From assembly GCA_018266295.1 (NCBI GenBank), contig JAFEAQ010000011.1, positions 310,001 to 374,000 of the forward strand: a stretch of DNA of 64,000 bases, given 5' to 3'. The stretch comes from Bdellovibrionales bacterium. Lineage in GTDB: Bacteria > Bdellovibrionota > Bdellovibrionia > Bdellovibrionales > Bdellovibrionaceae. The notes beneath the pieces are model-generated. The model worked only from the letters and a program-made list of their open reading frames with translations, was not told the DNA's origin and searched no databases. The translations under genes were made by a program, and so were the position numbers. Below, one piece after another: positions 7,452 to 48,200 of the stretch (position 1 is its first letter; each line of letters opens with the position of its first letter).

Positions 7452-9077
7452 CTAGTGCTTCTTCTGAGACAAGTAATAATCCCAGGTCCCATCATAAGTC
7501 GTCAGATGGCTCTTATCGACTTCAAACACCCGTGTCGTAATCTCACGTAAGAAGTGTCTATCATGGCTTACGATCATGACGGTGCCCGGGAAGGTCTTAA
7601 TGGCTTCAAGTAAAACTTCGCGCGACACGATATCCAAGTGATTCGTCGGCTCATCCAGCACGAGGAAATTCACAGGCTTCGCAAGGATCGTGGCTAGAAC
7701 CACGCGGCTTTTTTCACCACCCGACAAGACCGAAATCTTTTTGTCCGCCTCTTCGCCGCTGAACTTGAACGCACCGAGAAGATTTCTCACGAAACCCACT
7801 GTTGAATTTGGAATGCGCGAGTGAACTTCCTCGATGATGGTCGCATTCGGATCCAAGACATCCAGAGAGTTCTGCGAGAAATAACCCATTGAAATCGACG
7901 CTCCTAAGTTACAAACGCCGCTTGTGAGGTCCGTTTGACCTGTGATGATTTTAAGCAACGTCGATTTACCAGCACCGTTCACACCGACAACCGCCACACG
8001 GTCCAAGCGTTTTACCAGCGCGCTGGCATTTTCAAAAACCAGCTTCTCTTTGCCGTCGTCGCGTTTGTAAATCTTTGTGAGATTTTCAAACTTCACAACT
8101 TCATCCCCGCCACGAGGCGGCTCGGCCCACTCGAACTTGATGGCTTTTTCCTCAGCCGGAATTTCGATACGGTCGATCTTTTCCAATTTTTTAACACGCG
8201 ACTGAACTTGTGCCGCATGCGAGGCCCGCGCTGCAAAGCGAGCGATGAACTCTTCTTCTTTCGCGAGCATGTCTTCTTGGCGTTTCGCGGCCGCAATCAA
8301 CTGCTCAAGGCGAATCGCCTTTTCTTTTTCATAGAAATCGTAATTGCCACCGTAAGTCGTGATAGTTTTATTGGCAACTTCGACAACTTTGCTGACAAGT
8401 CTATTCATGAAATCGCGATCATGCGAAGTCATCATCAACGCGCCTTTAAAATTCGTCAGCCACTCTTCAAGCCAAATGATGGATTCCATGTCCAAGTGAT
8501 TCGTCGGCTCATCCATCAGCAAGACATCTGGGTTCAAAGCCAGGATCTTTGCCAAAGCAATACGCATTTTCCAACCACCCGAGAAGCTCTCGGTCGGACG
8601 GTGATAGTCCTCAGGTCCAATCCCAAGGCCCGTCAGGATCTCAGCCGCTCGCGTATCGAGGTCATAACCTCCTAAACGCTCATACTCGGCCTGAACTTCG
8701 CCATAGTTTTCGAGTAATTTTGCCATGGCATCGTCATCAATCGGATTCACTGCTGAATCTTCGAGCTGACGCTCATACTCTTTGAGTTTAGCGCCCAACT
8801 CAGGGAGCTTCCCGGCAGCGGATTTAACCTCTTCCAAGGCGCTACGGCCGCGCATATCCTCGATGTTCTGAGAGAAATAACCAATCACGGTTCTATCGGA
8901 CTTAGAAACCATGCCCTCATAGCCCTCTTCGCCTGTAATCACGCGGAAAATCGTGGTTTTACCGGCTCCGTTAGGGCCTACGAGACCGATTTTCTCTCCG
9001 TCGTTGATCTGGAAAGAGGCATTTTTATAGAGGATCTTACTACCGTATTGTTTAGTGATATTTGAGAGATGGATCAT
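7452..9077 (-). CDS. ABC-F family ATPase (YbiT/EttA-like)
   Basis: This 541-aa soluble protein has two fused ABC ATPase domains and no membrane segment, which is typical of ribosome-associated ABC-F factors. Domain 1 has GPNGAGKT (34-41), the signature SFSGGW and DEPTNHLD. Domain 2 has GVNGAGKS, the signature LSGGEKSR and DEPTNHLD. The linker between them is long, helical and Lys/Glu-rich, as in ABC-F proteins. Start 9077 (MIHLSN) is chosen because the protein begins there in the family, although the frame stays open further upstream. Such factors act at the ribosomal E site in translation or antibiotic protection; which subfamily is uncertain, with YbiT closest by length. It is divergent from the helicase gene. 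Confidence 0.92.
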   Translation of the reverse strand: MIHLSNITKQYGSKILYKNASFQINDGEKIGLVGPNGAGKTTIFRVITGEEGYEGMVSKSDRTVIGYFSQNIEDMRGRSALEEVKSAAGKLPELGAKLKEYERQLEDSAVNPIDDDAMAKLLENYGEVQAEYERLGGYDLDTRAAEILTGLGIGPEDYHRPTESFSGGWKMRIALAKILALNPDVLLMDEPTNHLDMESIIWLEEWLTNFKGALMMTSHDRDFMNRLVSKVVEVANKTITTYGGNYDFYEKEKAIRLEQLIAAAKRQEDMLAKEEEFIARFAARASHAAQVQSRVKKLEKIDRIEIPAEEKAIKFEWAEPPRGGDEVVKFENLTKIYKRDDGKEKLVFENASALVKRLDRVAVVGVNGAGKSTLLKIITGQTDLTSGVCNLGASISMGYFSQNSLDVLDPNATIIEEVHSRIPNSTVGFVRNLLGAFKFSGEEADKKISVLSGGEKSRVVLATILAKPVNFLVLDEPTNHLDIVSREVLLEAIKTFPGTVMIVSHDRHFLREITTRVFEVDKSHLTTYDGTWDYYLSQKKH

Positions 9078-9204
9078 GGACCACAAGGTACGGGTTTTCC
9101 CGTCTATTTGCAAGACAGCCGCTGAATAAAATACAGCTTTCATTATTTTAAGGCGGAGAGCCTGAAAATAGTCTAAATTGCTGTTTTCTTTTCGAAAGGT
9201 CCCC

Positions 9205-11196
9205 ATGCAATCTGAGTCTTCACCCGATAATTCTACTTCTACTCCTGTTGAATCCACGCCAAATTCTTTTGAAGCTTTTGGTCTCAGCTCTGACCTGATG
9301 AAGGCTATGAATGAGATGGGGTTCACTTCGGCGACTCCTATCCAGGAAAAGGCGATCCCGATGCTTTTGGGCGAAGCTCAAGACATGATCGGTTTGGCTT
9401 CTACGGGCACTGGTAAAACAGCGGCTTTCGGTATTCCTTTGATTGAAAAAATCGACGCGAGCTTGAAATCGACTCAAGGCCTTGTCTTGAGCCCGACTCG
9501 TGAGTTGGCTCTCCAAGTTGCGGATCAATTGCAAAAATTGGGTAAGTATAAAGGCGTTCGCGTTGTGACTATTTACGGTGGCTCTAGCTATCGCACTCAG
9601 ATGGAGGGCGTGAAACGTGGCGCTCACATCGTGGTTGCAACTCCAGGTCGCCTTGTTGATTTCTTGGAACAAAAAGTTGTTCAACTCACCAACGTCCAAA
9701 CTCTTGTTTTGGATGAAGCCGATGAGATGATCAGCATGGGTTTCAAAGATGACCTCGAGTTCATCTTAAAACACACGCACAACGAAAACGCAGCGGCTTC
9801 CGGCCGTGCTGCCTGCAAGACTTGGCTCTTCTCTGCAACTATGAGCCGCGATATCCGCCGTGTTGCTGATGCTTACCTTGAAAATCCTGAAACGATTGAG
9901 ATCGCGAAATCCCAAGGGATGTCTGATCTCGTGAAGCAGCTTTACTACACAGTTAAGGACGAACACAAAAACGAGGTGATCAGTCGCTTGCTGCAAATGT
10001 ACGACGATTTCCACGGCATCATCTTCTGCCAAACTAAAATGGAAGTGATCGAGCTTGAAGCAAAACTTCAACAACGTGGTTATGCCGTCGCTTCTTTGCA
10101 CGGTGATAAACAACAACGTGAGCGTGAAATCACTCTTAAGAAATTCCGTTCTGGGGAAGCCAAAGTGTTGGTTGCGACTGACGTTGCAGCTCGTGGTTTG
10201 GACGTAAAAGATCTTACTCACGTTATCAATCACTCGTTGCCATGGGATGTGGAATCTTACGTTCACCGCATCGGTCGTACAGGCCGTAACGGTAAAGAAG
10301 GGATCGCGATCAGCTTGATCAACCCACGCCAAGTAAGCTCTCTCCGCCGTTTGCAAAACGTGACGAAGAAGACTTTGGAAAAGGGCAAGATCCCGACTGC
10401 AGACGAAGTAGCACTCACTCGCTTGCAGAAATTCATGGGTCAGTTGACGGGCGTGCCGACTGAAGGCCGCAAGTATCAATTGGCTTTGGAAATGTTTAAA
10501 GAATTAGTTCAGAAAGATGAAACGGGTTTGATGACTTTGGCTTCGCCGGAGTTATTGGCTCGTGTAATCACAGCTTTGCATCCTGAGATCTTGGCTGAAA
10601 AAGACTACGACCTCGACTTCATGAAAGGCGGCCTCGAACAACGTGGCGGCGGCCGTCGTGACGATCGCGGTGACCGTGGTGGCCGCACTTTGAGCGGTGG
10701 CTACCGTAACGATTCACGTGGTGGCGGCTATTCTCGCCGTGACCGCGATGACCGTGGTGGCGACGATCGTCCACGCACAAGCGGCTTCGGCCGTCGTGAC
10801 CGTGGCGGCGATCGCGAAGAGCGCAGCGAGCGCACTGAGCGCAGAGAAAGCTTCGCTCCACGTGCTGAGCGTGGCGAACGTTCTGAGTCTCGCGATCGTG
10901 GTGGCTACATCCCGCGTTCTGAGCGCAAAGATGGGTCTTCGTACATCCCTCGCGGCGACCGCAAAGAGCGCGGTGGTTCTGATGACTCTTACCCACGTCG
11001 TGACCGTGGCCCTCGTTTTGACGGCTTCGATTTCGGCGACGGTGGTTCTGAAGGCGGCCGCAAAGAAAAGAAATCTTTCGGTGATCGCAAAGAGCGTAGC
11101 GGCGGTAGCGACCGTCCAAAGCGCGCTGACCACCCAGGCGTAAAACGCCACAAGAGTGGTGGCTTCAAACGCCGCCCTGCCAGCGACAACGCTTAG
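9205..11196 (+). CDS. DEAD-box RNA helicase with RGG/RD-rich tail
   Basis: This 663-aa protein carries all helicase motifs: Q motif ATPIQEKAIP, motif I ASTGTGKT (65-72), PTRELA, ATPGR, DEAD (170-173), SAT (210-212), ARGLD and HRIGRTGR. About 190 residues from residue 475 onward are low complexity, with many RGG, RRD, DRG and SRG units, a form of RNA-binding tail seen in some RhlE/CsdA-type helicases. ATG 9205 follows GAAAGGT. It unwinds RNA in ribosome assembly or mRNA turnover. No RRM-like DbpA domain was recognised. A strong terminator follows. The 127-bp gap to the divergent ABC-F gene holds both promoters. Confidence 0.95.
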   Translation: MQSESSPDNSTSTPVESTPNSFEAFGLSSDLMKAMNEMGFTSATPIQEKAIPMLLGEAQDMIGLASTGTGKTAAFGIPLIEKIDASLKSTQGLVLSPTRELALQVADQLQKLGKYKGVRVVTIYGGSSYRTQMEGVKRGAHIVVATPGRLVDFLEQKVVQLTNVQTLVLDEADEMISMGFKDDLEFILKHTHNENAAASGRAACKTWLFSATMSRDIRRVADAYLENPETIEIAKSQGMSDLVKQLYYTVKDEHKNEVISRLLQMYDDFHGIIFCQTKMEVIELEAKLQQRGYAVASLHGDKQQREREITLKKFRSGEAKVLVATDVAARGLDVKDLTHVINHSLPWDVESYVHRIGRTGRNGKEGIAISLINPRQVSSLRRLQNVTKKTLEKGKIPTADEVALTRLQKFMGQLTGVPTEGRKYQLALEMFKELVQKDETGLMTLASPELLARVITALHPEILAEKDYDLDFMKGGLEQRGGGRRDDRGDRGGRTLSGGYRNDSRGGGYSRRDRDDRGGDDRPRTSGFGRRDRGGDREERSERTERRESFAPRAERGERSESRDRGGYIPRSERKDGSSYIPRGDRKERGGSDDSYPRRDRGPRFDGFDFGDGGSEGGRKEKKSFGDRKERSGGSDRPKRADHPGVKRHKSGGFKRRPASDNA

Positions 11197-11220
11197 TCAC
11201 GGATAAAAATGAAAACCACC

Positions 11221-40691: not shown

Positions 40692-43600
40692 TCAATAAAA
40701 ATACTGCGTGGGCTCTAGCGGCAACGGCGTACTGTCTAAGTGCGCCGTATTCCACACAGGTTTTACCATATCCACAAGCAAGCTCGTGGTATTTCCGTCC
40801 TTCTGCACCACTCCTCCCACCGTAATGAAGCAATGATTCAAAAATACTTCGCGATACTTTTCAAAATTCTTGCGCCACAGAATAATATCAATAAATCCAA
40901 ACTCATCTTCCATTGTACAGAAGCAAACGCCCTTAGCTGTGGGTGGCTTTTGCCGGACAAGAACCAAGCCTGTGACCGTGATCCTTCGGCCGTTCACGGA
41001 ATCACGCAATGTTTGAGAAGTGCCTTTAGCAATCCCCGGCATGTTCTTGCGGATTTCTGCCATCGGATGCCCATGCGTAGAAATCGAAAAGGCCTCGTAA
41101 TCGGTTTGAATTTTTTCAAAGCCGTCAAGTTTTTGAAACTCGATCTGCGTTGATGACATCGGAATGATCTCTAAATCATTAAAGAAGCTCAGCTGATTTT
41201 CTACTGGCTTTTGAAACATATTTTGATATTCAAGCACCGCCCACAGAGCTTCGCGCGTGTCCCACTGAAACTCTTCAAAGCGGCCGGCCATGGCCATTCT
41301 GTGCAGAACATCCTTTTTCAGTTTTGAACGACGGACAAAGTCGCCGAGACTGCGGAAGCGTTCCTGCTTGCGCTCTTGTATCAAAAACTCGACATCTTTC
41401 TTGGCAATACCGTTCGTCACTCGGAAGCCAAGCCGAATCGTATTGGGGCCCGCAATCACGCAGTCCCACTCCGAGTGCAACACCGACACCGGCAAAACTC
41501 TGACACCATGCCTGAGAGCATCATATATAATAGTATCGTTGCGATAAAAGCCCATCGGTTGGCTATTCACAAGCGAGCACGCAAACTCCGCCGGGTGATG
41601 GCATTTCAAATAGCAACTAGCATACGCCAGCAGCGCAAACGAGGCCGAATGACTCTCAGGAAAACCGTAATGACTGAAGCCCTGAATCTGATCAAAGATC
41701 TGATTGGCGAAGGCTTCGGTCATTCCGTTATCGAGGAGTCCTCGCTTAAGTCGGTCGGCCATAACACCAATAGGAGCACTACTACGCCAAGCATTGATAG
41801 ATTTACGAAGGACATCGGCTTCTCCTGGGGTAAAGTTCGCGAGATCAATCGCGAGTTTCATAATCTGTTCTTGGAACAGAGGGACTCCCAATGTCTTACC
41901 AAGAACACGTTTCACCACTTCATTTGGGTATTCAATTTTTTCAAGTCCCCGACGGCGCTTGAGATAGGGATGAATCATATTGCCGACAATGGGACCAGGG
42001 CGAACAATGGCCACTTCCACAACGAGATCATAAAAATTCCGTGGTTTTAATCGTCCCAGCATCTGCATCTGCGCGCGCGACTCGATCTGGAAAGTTCCGA
42101 CAGTATCGCGCTCACAAATCATGTCGTAGGTCGGCTTGTCATCCTGGGGAATTTCATAGAGCTTCTTCCCCGTCAGCTTCAAAGCTTTTTGAAGGCAGCT
42201 CAACATCCCTAGCGACAACACATCGACTTTAATCAAACCGAGGGTGTCTAAGTCATATTTATCCCATTGAATAATAGTGCGCCCATCCATACGAGCAGGT
42301 TCAACAGGCACAATATCCACAATTGGGTCTGCACTGAGTGTGAACCCTCCGCTATGAATGGAAATATGGCGTGGGAAATTAATAATCGCATCGGCAATTG
42401 TGTCGATTTTTTGACGTAACTTCTCGGGCTCTGGTATATCCTTAACGATTTCATCGAAGTCCCTTTCTACTTTCTTTGCTGAAAGCGTGCCTACAGGCAG
42501 TCCAAAAGCTTTACAAACCTCACGGAAAGCACTGCGATTCTGATAAGTAATCACAGCACTGACCATGGCCGCGCGATGACGGCCATATTTTTCGTAAATA
42601 TACTGAATCACTTCTTCACGGCGTTCGTGTTCAAAATCGATATCAATATCTGGCGGCTCTCCGCGCTCGACACTGATAAAGCGTTCAAACAAAAGGTCCA
42701 TTTGTATGGGATCGATCGCCGTAATCCCTAGCACGTAGCACACCACCGAGTTCGCTGCCGAGCCCCGGCCCTGGCAGAGAATATCTTTTTTCTTTGCAAA
42801 CTCGACGATGTCATAAATCGTTAAAAAATAATCTGCGAACTTCAGCTCCTGAATGAGATTAAGCTCATGCAGGAGCTGACGCTTTACCCGGTCGGACATT
42901 CCTTGCGGGTAGCGCTCGGGAGCATTTTTCCAGATCAGGTGTTCCAAGTAGGACTGCGCCTCAAACCCCACTGGAATCCATTCCGAAGGGTAGCGGTAAC
43001 GCAACTCCGACGGAGAAAAAGTACAGGCGTGTGCGATTTCCAGGGTCCTTAAGAGCGACCCCGGGAAATCCTTATAGAGCAATTCCATTTGCGCAGGCGT
43101 TTTGATGTATCTCTCAGCGTTCGGCTGAAGCTTAAAGCCGATCTCTTGCAACGTCTTTCCTTCGCGGATCGAAATCAAAACATCCTGAACCATCTTTCGC
43201 TTACTCTCGTGATACTCCACATCGTTTGAAGCCACGAGCGGCAGATCAAAATACCGTGAGTACTCCGTCAGTTCGGCGACACGCTTTTTATCATTGCCGT
43301 CCAAGTAAATGGTCAAAGGCAAAGACACTTGCGTGACACCGAAGACTTCTTTCAGATCGCCGATACGAGTCTCTTTAGAAACTCTTGGCAAGACAAAAAC
43401 CTCTGGCGACTTTTGCATTCCCAAAAATTCTAAAAAGGTCGCGAACTCCAAATGAGTCTTCCCTTTCTCACTGCCGCGCTTTGCTTTTGTGAGCAGTTGG
43501 CAGATTCTCCCGTAGGCCGCGCGGGTCTGAGCGAGCACCGTGATATTCGGGTGATCTACAAACACGCATTCAGTACCGACAAGATACTTAAAATCAGGAT

Positions 43601-43769
43601 GACTTTTAGCAATCTGGTAACCTCTTGGCATTCCATACACACCATCCATGTCTGTGATCGCGATTCCGCTTAATCCCTGCGAAATGGCGGTTTCAACGAG
43701 CTCCGCCGGGTGAGAAGCACCCGTTAAAAAACTAAAATTCGATTTTGCGCGTAACTCGACGTAACTCAT
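40692..43769 (-). CDS. dnaE2: Error-prone DNA polymerase III alpha subunit DnaE2
   Basis: This 1025-aa polymerase begins with a PHP domain (SNFSFLTGASHPAEL). The polymerase Asp triad lies in PDIDIDF at about residue 373, and an OB fold near 920-1000 (RITVTGLVLVRQ). DnaE2 is the translesion polymerase of the ImuA-ImuB-DnaE2 mutasome induced by DNA damage. Start 43769 gives the family N-terminus MSYVELRAKS, with ATAGG upstream; the frame is open further upstream through the hairpin-rich gap but that region is not conserved-looking. It is the last gene of the lexA-imuA-imuB-dnaE2 series, 326 bp after imuB. Confidence 0.95.
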   Translation of the reverse strand: MSYVELRAKSNFSFLTGASHPAELVETAISQGLSGIAITDMDGVYGMPRGYQIAKSHPDFKYLVGTECVFVDHPNITVLAQTRAAYGRICQLLTKAKRGSEKGKTHLEFATFLEFLGMQKSPEVFVLPRVSKETRIGDLKEVFGVTQVSLPLTIYLDGNDKKRVAELTEYSRYFDLPLVASNDVEYHESKRKMVQDVLISIREGKTLQEIGFKLQPNAERYIKTPAQMELLYKDFPGSLLRTLEIAHACTFSPSELRYRYPSEWIPVGFEAQSYLEHLIWKNAPERYPQGMSDRVKRQLLHELNLIQELKFADYFLTIYDIVEFAKKKDILCQGRGSAANSVVCYVLGITAIDPIQMDLLFERFISVERGEPPDIDIDFEHERREEVIQYIYEKYGRHRAAMVSAVITYQNRSAFREVCKAFGLPVGTLSAKKVERDFDEIVKDIPEPEKLRQKIDTIADAIINFPRHISIHSGGFTLSADPIVDIVPVEPARMDGRTIIQWDKYDLDTLGLIKVDVLSLGMLSCLQKALKLTGKKLYEIPQDDKPTYDMICERDTVGTFQIESRAQMQMLGRLKPRNFYDLVVEVAIVRPGPIVGNMIHPYLKRRRGLEKIEYPNEVVKRVLGKTLGVPLFQEQIMKLAIDLANFTPGEADVLRKSINAWRSSAPIGVMADRLKRGLLDNGMTEAFANQIFDQIQGFSHYGFPESHSASFALLAYASCYLKCHHPAEFACSLVNSQPMGFYRNDTIIYDALRHGVRVLPVSVLHSEWDCVIAGPNTIRLGFRVTNGIAKKDVEFLIQERKQERFRSLGDFVRRSKLKKDVLHRMAMAGRFEEFQWDTREALWAVLEYQNMFQKPVENQLSFFNDLEIIPMSSTQIEFQKLDGFEKIQTDYEAFSISTHGHPMAEIRKNMPGIAKGTSQTLRDSVNGRRITVTGLVLVRQKPPTAKGVCFCTMEDEFGFIDIILWRKNFEKYREVFLNHCFITVGGVVQKDGNTTSLLVDMVKPVWNTAHLDSTPLPLEPTQYFY

Positions 43770-44095
43770 GATGAACCTATGCTGATAAAACTTCGTTAAT
43801 TCTTGTTGCTGAATAAAAAACTCTTGCTGTCTTCGAACTATCCTGAGCGTCCTGTCAATCGAGGCTCCCGCCTCGAGCTCCGCTTCCTGCCGGCCGTCCA
43901 GGCCGTCAGGTTCCTGTACCTCAATACAAGTACAAACGCCGTAATTTACTTCCCCATTTACGTCGGAAGGTCGGCCACGATGGCCGAGCTTGAGCTTCGC
44001 TGCCCTTCGGGTCAGGGGTTCGGGGACAGAGTCCCTGATTGCAGGATGCAGGAAGAAGTGCGAAGCCACCTCCAATCCACACAATCATTGCAGGC
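43770..44095. repeat. Hairpin cluster between imuB and dnaE2
   Basis: This 326-bp gap has no gene but at least four stems. They are CGAGGC-tccc-GCCTCG (43860-43875), CCTGCCGGCC-gtcca-GGCCGTCAGG with one mismatch (43886-43910), TCGGCCA-cga-TGGCCGA (43971-43987), and TCAGGG/CCCTGA (44012-44038). The third shares its CCACGATGG core with a hairpin beside the RAYT gene, so a REP-like cluster is the first guess. An attenuator or small RNA controlling dnaE2 is the alternative. Confidence 0.6.
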
Positions 44096-45379
44096 TCAAT
44101 CAAACTCCCCCTGCAGAAAATCCCCCTGCGCCGTCCGGTATAACCAGAGCTGACGTCCCTTACTAGTCGTCAGCCGGTAGTACACGCGTTCAAGCGAATT
44201 CTCCCACCATTCTGAGAAAACAATCTCGCGGTTATCGAGGCTTTCAACCTCATCGACATTGTCATCCCAGCAGATGTGCTTCCCCCAAAAGTGCACCTGG
44301 CTTGGCGTCGGAAGCAGACGCAAGGGCCGTTCAGCCAGGCGGTCCACGGGAGGAGGGATCTTCGGCGGCTCGGCCTCCCTCTCCCATGTCTTCTCGGGTA
44401 TATAACTCTCCCGCATCCGCGCAAAGAAAACTGCTTTCTCTCCAATTCGCGTTGCAACCCGGGAAACAAATTGGAAGAAAGACTCTTCGTTCTCTTCTCG
44501 TCGCTGGTTGAAGAGATCCTTTTGGTTCATCGCGTACGGGATCTCTTCGGTGACCACCAACGAGAACTCCGTGATTCGATGCTTGATCGGTTTCGCCGCC
44601 ACTTGAGCATCGACCATTTCCTTTGCCACTTGCAGAATCACCTTCTGCGAAACATACGGCAATTGCAGGCAGATCGAGATTTTATAATCTTGCTCTGCAG
44701 GAGTCAGCGCGTGTTCTTGGCGAAGAATAATATCAAACTGCCGTGCCCGTTTGCCTTTACCTCGCAATCGCAACTGCATACGATCGAGCATCGTCTTCAT
44801 CTTGAAATAGATCGGCTCGAGATTGTCGACCGGACTTTCCAAGTCAAATTCATGACGCTCCGTAATCACTTCGCTCGGCTTAAACGCTTTCCATGGCACC
44901 GGGCTTTCACCCATCACTCGGTAATAAGCCATCAGGCCGACAGTACTGAATCTTGTACTGATCTCACGCACAGAGAACTTTAAGAAATCCTTCAGTGTGC
45001 GAACGCCGAGGCTTTTTAAAAGCTCCGTCATTTTTACGACTTTCTGAGTGAGTTCCATTTGTTCTCCGAGAGGATCGAAATAATATTTCAATGTATCAAT
45101 CGGTAACGCGAGCTTATCCCGTTGATCCAACACCGCAAACGACAAGGCCGTGGGCACGTCCTCGCCGACTCCGATCTTGGCCCGTATTCCCGCTTTCCGC
45201 AGAGTGACCAGGGTCCGTTTAATAAAAGTATTCACCGAGTAAAGCCCCAAGCATTTCGATATATCCATGAAGAGGAAGCGATCCCCTCGGGTCATCACCT
45301 GAGGAGTTGCGCGGTAAAAAATTTCTGCAAGGGCTTGCAGGTTTTGCGGCTGTTCGAATTCTAAGCATACGACTGTCAT
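44096..45379 (-). CDS. imuB: ImuB, inactive Y-family polymerase homologue
   Basis: This 427-aa protein has Y-family fold landmarks (FLFMDISKCLGLY, IGVGEDVPTALSFAVL) without the usual catalytic Asp-Glu set, as expected for ImuB. A beta-clamp binding motif, QKDLF, lies at residues 286-290. ImuB is thought to bring DnaE2 to the sliding clamp at lesions. It overlaps imuA as ATGA, with AGGAGGATGG upstream. Confidence 0.92.
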   Translation of the reverse strand: MTVVCLEFEQPQNLQALAEIFYRATPQVMTRGDRFLFMDISKCLGLYSVNTFIKRTLVTLRKAGIRAKIGVGEDVPTALSFAVLDQRDKLALPIDTLKYYFDPLGEQMELTQKVVKMTELLKSLGVRTLKDFLKFSVREISTRFSTVGLMAYYRVMGESPVPWKAFKPSEVITERHEFDLESPVDNLEPIYFKMKTMLDRMQLRLRGKGKRARQFDIILRQEHALTPAEQDYKISICLQLPYVSQKVILQVAKEMVDAQVAAKPIKHRITEFSLVVTEEIPYAMNQKDLFNQRREENEESFFQFVSRVATRIGEKAVFFARMRESYIPEKTWEREAEPPKIPPPVDRLAERPLRLLPTPSQVHFWGKHICWDDNVDEVESLDNREIVFSEWWENSLERVYYRLTTSKGRQLWLYRTAQGDFLQGEFD

Positions 45380-45918
45380 CCCATCCTCCTTTTTGTGGTT
45401 TCGATATTGAAACCAAGTTTTTTCTTCGAAACCTTTAATTGTAAATTCGGCACCCAGCTTTGATGGAGATCCTCAGACAAAAGAAAAAAGTGGGCCCCGT
45501 ATCTCTCAGAGAGAAGCTGATAGCGTCTTAAATCTTTTTCGTCAGTGGAACGGTCTACATCGAGATTAGTTACTAAGGCTTGAAAGCATCCTGATTGGAG
45601 AGCTTGATTGATACACCAAGCAAGTTGCTTTCCAGCTTCAATAAATAATACATTTTCTGTCTTCACCCCTTTTTGAAAAAGCGCATAGGGGTTGATCGTT
45701 AACTCCTTTTCGATCCAGGCCACTTTCATGTCTGGATGTTCTTTCAAAAACAAACTTACTAATTCTGTTTTGCCAAAACCGCTGATTTCAATAATCGAGC
45801 CCTTTGGGAAGCCCTCGCGAAACAGAGTAAAATCGCTTTTTTCTCTCTCAAGATGCTGGGCGGAGCCAATAAGCTGCCTTAGCTCCTCGAGAGAGGGCTT
45901 CACTAGAACTAAGCTCAT
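45376..45918 (-). CDS. imuA: ImuA (RecA-like mutasome accessory protein)
   Basis: This 180-aa protein resembles ImuA/SulA-like RecA-fold proteins by position and by the sequence around EISGFGKTELVSLF, a Walker A region that lacks the leading Gly, so ATP binding is doubtful. It is shorter than many ImuA proteins. It lies 19 bp after lexA and overlaps imuB by 4 bp, so lexA, imuA and imuB form one transcription unit. Confidence 0.85.
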   Translation of the reverse strand: MSLVLVKPSLEELRQLIGSAQHLEREKSDFTLFREGFPKGSIIEISGFGKTELVSLFLKEHPDMKVAWIEKELTINPYALFQKGVKTENVLFIEAGKQLAWCINQALQSGCFQALVTNLDVDRSTDEKDLRRYQLLSERYGAHFFLLSEDLHQSWVPNLQLKVSKKKLGFNIETTKRRMG

Positions 45919-46531: not shown

Positions 46532-46617
46532 CGCACTCTCCTTACTACTTTCTTCATCACACTTTGCATCTCTGACTCGCTCTTGCGGGCGTCTGCCTTT
46601 TAGGAGGCTCTTTCACA

Positions 46618-46688
46618 CTCGTACTTTTAACGCACTTTCGTGCCCGTACATTTCCCGTACTTTGAATATAACCGTACATTTCCCGTAC
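46618..46688. promoter_or_regulatory. CCGTAC repeat array between lexA and SRAP genes
   Basis: CCGTACATTTCCCGTAC occurs twice identically (46644-46660 and 46672-46688), 28 bp apart. Each copy contains two CGTAC units 11 bp apart, and a further CTCGTAC lies at 46618-46624. The spacing places units on the same face of the helix. It lies 87-157 bp upstream of lexA and 83-153 bp upstream of SRAP. It is a candidate LexA operator array. Confidence 0.65.
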
Positions 46689-46738
46689 CCGCAAGAGGGG
46701 TCTCGTGTTTTTTTTAACTTTTTTCGTAAACCTTTGAA

Positions 46739-46748
46739 ATCACGTGAT
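46739..46748. promoter_or_regulatory. ATCACGTGAT palindrome before the SRAP gene
   Basis: A perfect 10-bp palindrome 22 bp upstream of the SRAP start; a possible second operator. Confidence 0.35.
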
Positions 46749-46770
46749 AGATGCACTACGGTAGGACCTT

Positions 46771-47433
46771 ATGTGTGCACAATACATTGTGAAACTCCAG
46801 GCCCTAGATCTAGAAACCCTCTTCGGAATTTCCATTTCGAACGACATTCCCCCCTGGCTTGAGCGGATCACCCCGTACACCAGCGCCCCGGTTTTGACCC
46901 ACGATGGATTGCACATGATGAACTTCTCTCTGATCCCCTCCTGGGCGACGGAGAAGAAGCAGAAATTCGCCACTTATAATGCACGGATTGAAACAGTGAT
47001 TGAAAAACCGACGTGGCGAAAACCTTTTGAAGCCAACCGCTGCCTCGTTCCTATCAGCAAATTCGTCGAGCCGATCTATGAGCATGAATACGCCGGCAAT
47101 ATGGTGGCGTTTGAACGCAAAGATCACGAACCCCTTTTTGCTGCAGGAATTTATGATCACTGGATCGACAAAAAAACCGGCGAAGAGATCGCAAGCTTCG
47201 CCATTCTGACCTCACCGGCTCTCGAATTCGTTCATCGTATCGGTCATGACCGCAGCCCCATTTTTCTGCCGAAAGAATCTTTCACCGAGTGGACAAAGCC
47301 GGAGAAACAAAATCCGCAAAAACTTGTCCAGTACTTACGTGAGCATCGCCTGAACCCGCCGCTCATCGTGGAGAAAGATCGCCCGATGAAAGCCGGCTGG
47401 GAAAAACGCAAGCCTCAAGAAAGCAATGCATGA
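46771..47433 (+). CDS. SRAP family DNA-protein crosslink protein (YedK/HMCES)
   Basis: This 220-aa protein has Cys2 right after the initiator Met, Asn70 in YNARIET, Glu100 in VPISKFVEP and His159 in IGHDRSP. These match catalytic Cys2, Asn75, Glu105 and His160 of Escherichia coli YedK. SRAP proteins form a thiazolidine crosslink with abasic sites in single-stranded DNA and so shield them from error-prone repair. Its position divergent from lexA fits SOS control. It overlaps the thioesterase gene as ATGA. Confidence 0.93.
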   Translation: MCAQYIVKLQALDLETLFGISISNDIPPWLERITPYTSAPVLTHDGLHMMNFSLIPSWATEKKQKFATYNARIETVIEKPTWRKPFEANRCLVPISKFVEPIYEHEYAGNMVAFERKDHEPLFAAGIYDHWIDKKTGEEIASFAILTSPALEFVHRIGHDRSPIFLPKESFTEWTKPEKQNPQKLVQYLREHRLNPPLIVEKDRPMKAGWEKRKPQESNA

Positions 47434-48200
47434 GCCAAGAAATCAAAACTCTTTGGACGGAAAACTACAAAATCAACAGCCTTCTTGTAAATGCCATGGG
47501 ACGCCTTGGCCTCTATGGAGTTTTGAACCTCATGCAAGAAACCGCGTGGATGCACGCGGAGACTCTCGGTTTCGGCATGAAAGCGATGGAAGAGAAAAAT
47601 CTTTTCTGGGTTGTGACTCGGCAGACACTCAAAATGACGGAATGGCCTGCATTTGGAAAAACCGTGCAAGTACAAACTTGGTTGAGACCGCCAGAAGGCG
47701 CGTTCGTTGCACGTGAATTCCGCATTCTCGATGACAGCGGCAAAGAGATCGGCGCGTGCGTGACATCTTGGCTAGCACTGGATCGCCAAACGAAACGCAT
47801 CCTCCCCGCTCAAGATCTTTACCCATGGGCTCAGATCGCCCGTCAAGAAGCCACCGGGCTCGTCGCCGATAAAATCCCGGTGGAGGGAACTTACGAAACG
47901 CTTGCGAAATTTGGAGTGCGTAACTCCGATCTCGACACCAATCAACATGTCAACAATACGAAGTATGCGCAGTGGATTCTGGATTCCATCCCCTATGATC
48001 TCCACCGTTCACTCCGACTGAACTCGTATTCAGTGAATTTCCTAGCAGAGACTCATTTAGGGGACGAAGTCCAAGTCGATCGCAACTGTGAGCATGCGAA
48101 CGGCTTCACCGCAAATAAAGGAGAATCCTGGTATCGCGGCTTACGAGCAGCCGATGAGAGAGTTCTCTTCACCGCCAAACTCACTTGGGAAAAACGTTAA
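47430..48200 (+). CDS. Acyl-ACP thioesterase (FatA/FatB-like)
   Basis: This 256-aa cytosolic protein has two hot-dog halves, with DLDTNQHVNNTKYAQWILD in the second, the Asn-His segment of the acyl-ACP thioesterase active site. It releases free fatty acids from acyl carrier protein or another carrier. The start overlaps the SRAP stop, so the two share a transcript even though their functions differ. It is convergent with the next gene. Confidence 0.9.
   Translation: MSQEIKTLWTENYKINSLLVNAMGRLGLYGVLNLMQETAWMHAETLGFGMKAMEEKNLFWVVTRQTLKMTEWPAFGKTVQVQTWLRPPEGAFVAREFRILDDSGKEIGACVTSWLALDRQTKRILPAQDLYPWAQIARQEATGLVADKIPVEGTYETLAKFGVRNSDLDTNQHVNNTKYAQWILDSIPYDLHRSLRLNSYSVNFLAETHLGDEVQVDRNCEHANGFTANKGESWYRGLRAADERVLFTAKLTWEKR

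Follow-up and report, generated by a model that had tools for sequence, protein, structure and literature searches.

A predicted direct-repeat operator of a second LexA at the lexA2-imuA-imuB-dnaE2 cassette of a Bdellovibrionales bacterium

The repeat array between lexA and the SRAP gene in the 64,000-nucleotide stretch of DNA analysed here (the window) is predicted to be the operator of LexA2, the protein of the adjacent lexA gene, through which LexA2 would repress its own lexA2-imuA-imuB-dnaE2 cassette as a local damage switch. We place the probability of this reading, which was reached by sequence comparison, at roughly 0.9. It is called a LexA operator because the sites are present at every close LexA2, are absent in congeners without LexA2, and carry a half-site that tracks residue 44 of the recognition helix. 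The preliminary description of this DNA had proposed a LexA operator at the array. Footprinting, the presence or absence of LexA2 and the helix covariation support that proposal and refine it to the operator of the cassette of a second LexA.

The array is located in a 239-bp intergenic region (46532-46770) from which lexA (- strand) and SRAP (+ strand) diverge. CCGTACATTTCCCGTAC is present in the window as two 100% identical copies, 28 bp apart from start to start (operators A and B, Table 1). The GTAC cores start at 46621, 46646, 46657, 46674, and 46685, with spacings of 25, 11, 17, and 11 bp; within each site the two cores thus lie 11 bp apart, in the manner of a direct repeat, and the half-site in the window is GTAC and not the alphaproteobacterial GTTC. 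Both the identical pair and the 11, 17, and 11 bp units had been noted previously, and the coordinates and gene profiles agree. The suggested binding on the same face holds for the two half-sites of one site (11 bp) and not for all units, since the 28-bp offset is about 2.7 turns. No repeat in the intergenic region is longer than 17 bp; in 2000 dinucleotide-preserving shuffles of the region the longest repeat averaged 7.8 bp with a maximum of 15 bp, and 17 bp was never reached. A degenerate third site reads TCGTACTTTTAACGCAC on the forward strand. When CCGTACN5CCGTAC was searched with up to 3 mismatches, 22 matches were found in the window versus 19.7 expected from shuffles, which indicates that only the exact copies carry signal. 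The array is bracketed by a perfect 10-bp inverted repeat, CTCTTGCGGG and CCCGCAAGAG (46580-46589 and 46688-46697, 98 nt apart).

Table 1 Position and basis of the features at the lexA2-SRAP locus, in window coordinates.
Feature	Position	Strand	Basis and remarks
LexA2 operator A (predicted), GTACGGGAAATGTACGG on lexA strand	46672-46688	-	Exact repeat; same spacer position in 7 orthologous promoters
LexA2 operator B (predicted), identical to A	46644-46660	-	Exact repeat; second site kept in orthologues
Degenerate third site, GTGCGTTAAAAGTACGA on lexA strand	46619-46635	-	11-bp spaced, one half-site altered; 3 mismatches to CCGTACN5CCGTAC
Putative lexA2 core promoter	46665-46694	-	By eye; TTGCGG 46689-46694, 18-bp spacer with operator A, TATATT 46665-46670
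lexA2, 197 aa	45938-46531	-	Pfam, TIGR00498; alignment with orthologues and solved LexA
imuA	45376-45918	-	NF033429 ImuA_translesion, E 7.5e-17, below curated cut-off
imuB-like, divergent Y-family polymerase relative	44096-45379	-	Weak NCBIfam Pol IV matches, IMS_C E 0.0022; conserved cassette position
dnaE2, error-prone DNA polymerase	40692-43778	-	NF004225 error-prone DNA polymerase, 1180 bits
SRAP (HMCES/YedK family), begins Met-Cys	46771-47433	+	PF02586 E 2.7e-36; divergent from lexA2

The LexA encoded in the window is a genuine LexA: it scores 186 bits with TIGR00498 (cut-off 111) and has the LexA_DNA_bind and Peptidase_S24 domains of Pfam. It carries Gln44-His45 in the recognition helix, an Ala83-Gly84 cleavage site, and a Ser118/Lys155 dyad, the latter two aligning with the cleavage site and dyad of E. 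coli LexA. The gene order lexA-imuA-imuB-dnaE2 was found in the window and in four further loci (L088, L090, L091, and L092); the imuA and imuB calls come from sub-threshold profile matches. The start codon of the window dnaE2 is uncertain, as the open frame extends further upstream. In L090, which comes from a metagenome-assembled genome, the dnaE2 matches fall into three overlapping pieces (8448-11218), suggesting frameshifts or assembly errors. The same gene order has been described for mutagenesis cassettes, and SRAP has been reported before in the company of LexA and imuA-imuB-dnaE2 (PMC3765255). An acyl-ACP thioesterase gene follows SRAP (region 47430-48200); the two overlap by four bases at the end of SRAP (ATGA, 47430-47433), and therefore both genes may share one transcript.

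Footprinting was performed over 141 genomes of the order. Besides the window genome, seven others encode close LexA2 orthologues, 64-71% identical to the window LexA, and two or more 11-bp-spaced direct repeats stand just upstream of lexA2 in all seven. The repeats are spelled GTACG-N6-GTACG in four genera, the window's included, and GTTCG-N6-GTTCG in a fifth genus, g19, in all four of its genomes that carry LexA2. The strict site GTWCGRNRWWTGTWCGR, searched across the 141 genomes, is found at lexA2 in 8/8 LexA2-bearing genomes, while the site pair is absent from G062 and G064, two g19 species without LexA2. Where strict-site matches were examined in genomes lacking LexA2, they fell within ORFs or beside unrelated genes. 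Since GTAC is its own reverse complement, a direct and an inverted repeat look alike in the window; the GTTCGA...GTTCGA versions of the orthologues display direct, not only inverted, symmetry, and the direct-repeat reading follows from them.

The placement of the sites is conserved as well. Operator A fills the spacer between the putative -35 and -10 elements of lexA2. Operator B lies just downstream of the -10 element and should overlap the point where lexA2 transcription begins. The orthologues carry TTGAAG-N16-TATATT, or a sequence close to it, at the equivalent place; the window has TTGCGG in place of TTGAAG. The common layout is TTGAAG, one site in the spacer, TATATT or a near variant, and then another site. 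The site-to-site distance is 27-28 bp in most orthologues; in G063 it is 38 bp, longer by roughly one helical turn. A formal promoter scan of the window returned nothing above the tool threshold, the putative lexA2 promoter included, and the promoter call thus rests on this conservation. A promoter for SRAP was also sought and could not be placed.

The spelling of the half-site changes together with the recognition helix of LexA2. The helix reads STVHHY in g19, the genus with GTTC sites, and S[ST]VQHY in the GTAC genomes; His44 therefore goes with GTTC in g19, and Gln44 goes with GTAC in the other orthologues. Position 44 aligns with E. coli Glu44, which is listed among the DNA-contacting residues (PMC3091678). 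In the tree, the His44/GTTC clade (support 100/100) is nested in the LexA2 clade (100/99), whose remaining members are Gln44/GTAC. This nesting indicates that the change went from GTAC to GTTC, most likely once, and on these sequences the joint shift of Gln44 to His and of GTAC to GTTC is most likely a single evolutionary event, a point that weighs against the LexA2 reading. Outside this group, GTTC boxes go with His at the position aligned with 44 in the LexA of Bacillus subtilis and of Caulobacter, and a GTAC box goes with Gln there in that of Nostoc. A universal code in which Gln44 reads TAC and His44 reads TTC was dropped because the distant LexA L131 (genome G320) has GTTC upstream, as GTTCGGTTTTTGTTCGG, yet Gln44-Glu45 in its helix; residue 44 is thus not the sole determinant. 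A rule based on residue 45 failed because L041 combines Asn45 with GTAC.

Within the 4.22-Mb genome, CCGTACN5CCGTAC occurs only 3 times, each time as the exact 17-mer with identical inner five bases. The third copy is at C22:176061-176077 (around 5062-5078 of L016), directly after the -35-like hexamer TTGACC and about 40 bp ahead of an orphan ORF of 62 aa. A search of the order's 140 other genomes found no relative of this ORF, and no Pfam match was found for it. The same copy also lies upstream of a 90-aa ORF and is preceded by genes that encode DUF4145 and Abi_alpha domains; the C22 ORF may be under SOS control and lie close to a defence locus. In relaxed searches of the LexA2 genomes, all further matches were inside ORF calls, the C22 copy excepted. 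The shorter pattern GTACN7GTAC has 18 sites in the window genome: the three 17-mers, 12 within ORF calls, and three intergenic sites beside non-SOS genes. It was rejected as a genome-wide SOS box, since the sites other than the 17-mers lie in ORFs or beside non-SOS genes and are mostly chance. The preliminary description had pointed to recA and other SOS genes as places to look for the motif. GTAC is absent from the recA promoter, and the genome-wide list of CCGTACN5CCGTAC holds no site at any other recognisable SOS gene, so that expectation failed. The result limits the regulon and has no bearing on LexA binding at lexA2: by its distribution in the sequence, the site is nearly private to the lexA2 cassette and is not a genome-wide SOS box.

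The genome encodes another LexA, LexA1 (L020, contig C4:753438-754079), and binding of the array by LexA1 in place of LexA2 has to be weighed. The LexA1 helix also carries Gln44 (SVQNY), and its promoter has 11-bp-spaced repeats, both of which would fit such binding. These repeats, CTTACACATCATTTACATATGTAA, are TTAC-type, and the promoter holds no GTAC. In addition, the g19 lexA2 sites turned to GTTC without a matching change in LexA1 or its boxes; the LexA1 promoters of g19 keep TTAC/CTAC/GTAA elements, which argues against LexA1 as the binder. Congeners with LexA1 and without LexA2 have no sites, and G068, G070, and G132, in which the search found only a LexA2-type LexA, do have them. Binding by LexA1 is therefore considered very unlikely.

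Direct repeats also serve other regulators, and the array could belong to an XRE-family or phage-type repressor, or have a part in replication or DNA structure that has nothing to do with LexA. This account is even harder to credit, as the identity of the site tracks both the recognition helix and the presence of LexA2, its core-promoter position is conserved, and 11-bp direct repeats precede most sampled lexA genes in the phylum. A chance or recent local duplication without function could yield two identical copies 28 bp apart by tandem duplication; with an exact third copy on another contig, and conserved pairs in seven orthologous promoters whose flanks have diverged, its probability is close to negligible.

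With LexA2 as the preferred binder, a mechanism can be proposed. A LexA2 dimer would bind each 11-bp-spaced direct repeat (GTACG N6 GTACG on the lexA strand). With one site in the -35/-10 spacer and the next at the transcription start, bound LexA2 would block RNA polymerase and so repress its own operon. Upon DNA damage, RecA filaments and self-cleavage of LexA2 at Ala83-Gly84 would free the promoter, and the error-prone polymerase cassette would be turned on, probably together with the divergent SRAP gene. Because the site is nearly private to the cassette, LexA2 would act as a local switch apart from LexA1.

The published Bdellovibrio LexA motif is TTACN3GTAA (PMC8565304). This palindrome is absent from 46532-46770 on direct reading, just as the preliminary description had said. 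The B. bacteriovorus motif comes from the same phylum as the window but is an inverted repeat with another half-site and is tied to a LexA1-type protein. In genus g4 it occurs as TTACACTGTAA ahead of LexA1, which indicates that TTACN3GTAA goes with the LexA1 lineage. In g4 lexA promoters (L046 and L051-L055), the TTAC of TTACACTGTAA also serves as the second half-site of the 11-bp direct repeat TTACATATTATTTAC; TTACN3GTAA may belong to a larger box of the direct-repeat kind. Judging by the title of a 2005 report by Campoy, the canonical SOS genes of Bdellovibrio are said not to be under LexA repression.

The periodicity was further measured in 51 non-identical lexA upstream regions across the phylum by self-match at lags of 6 to 40. 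Lag 11 alone stands out: its longest run averages 7.0, against 3.88 +/- 0.14 in shuffles and 3.6-4.8 for every other lag. A lag-11 run of at least 6 is found in 39/51 regions, a count over loci partly related to one another and so not one of independent events. The half-sites vary and include GTACG, GTTCG, TTACGCA, TACGG, CTATACA, and TTATGG.

Among known systems, the alphaproteobacterial LexA box is the direct repeat GTTCN7GTTC (PMC8565304). It shares with the window a 4-5 bp half-site in direct repeat and the 11-bp period, and the g19 orthologues match its spelling; the window differs by its GTAC half-site, by its phylum, and by a regulon that is apparently only the lexA2 cassette, against a broad SOS regulon. 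The preliminary description had set the direct-repeat layout apart from the inverted repeats of most LexA boxes. That difference stands, but the layout is not itself new, as it matches GTTCN7GTTC. The cyanobacterial box, RGTACNNNDGTWCB or AGTACWNWTGTACT, also has GTAC half-sites (PMC3091678), with a 4-bp gap (8-bp period) where the window has 7 bp. A further parallel is the Pseudomonas putida type of lexA2-imuA-imuB-dnaE2 cassette, in which the gene order is the same and a second LexA with its own motif likewise stands beside the main LexA. The P. putida LexA2 box is GTACN4GTGC, in contrast to GTACN7GTAC here, and SRAP is divergently placed here. Neither GTACN7GTAC nor direct-repeat LexA boxes in Bdellovibrionota were found in the searched literature, in which coverage of subscription papers was small. 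LexA-box diversity and 11-bp direct repeats are already known; the GTAC spelling of that switch is what is new.

These comparisons suggest, at the sequence level, that LexA boxes of the direct-repeat kind also exist outside Alphaproteobacteria. With moderate confidence, a broader picture is favoured in which 11-bp direct-repeat boxes would extend across Bdellovibrionota with half-sites drifting along with the helix residues. LexA2 cassettes would be orthogonal, nearly single-target SOS switches, and one genus would have moved from GTAC to GTTC with Gln44 to His, reaching the alphaproteobacterial spelling. The array provides a concrete predicted operator for LexA-controlled mutagenesis in Bdellovibrio relatives, and Gln44/GTAC versus His44/GTTC, in proteins about 64-70% identical, offers a natural pair in which the joint evolution of repressor and operator following gene duplication can be studied.
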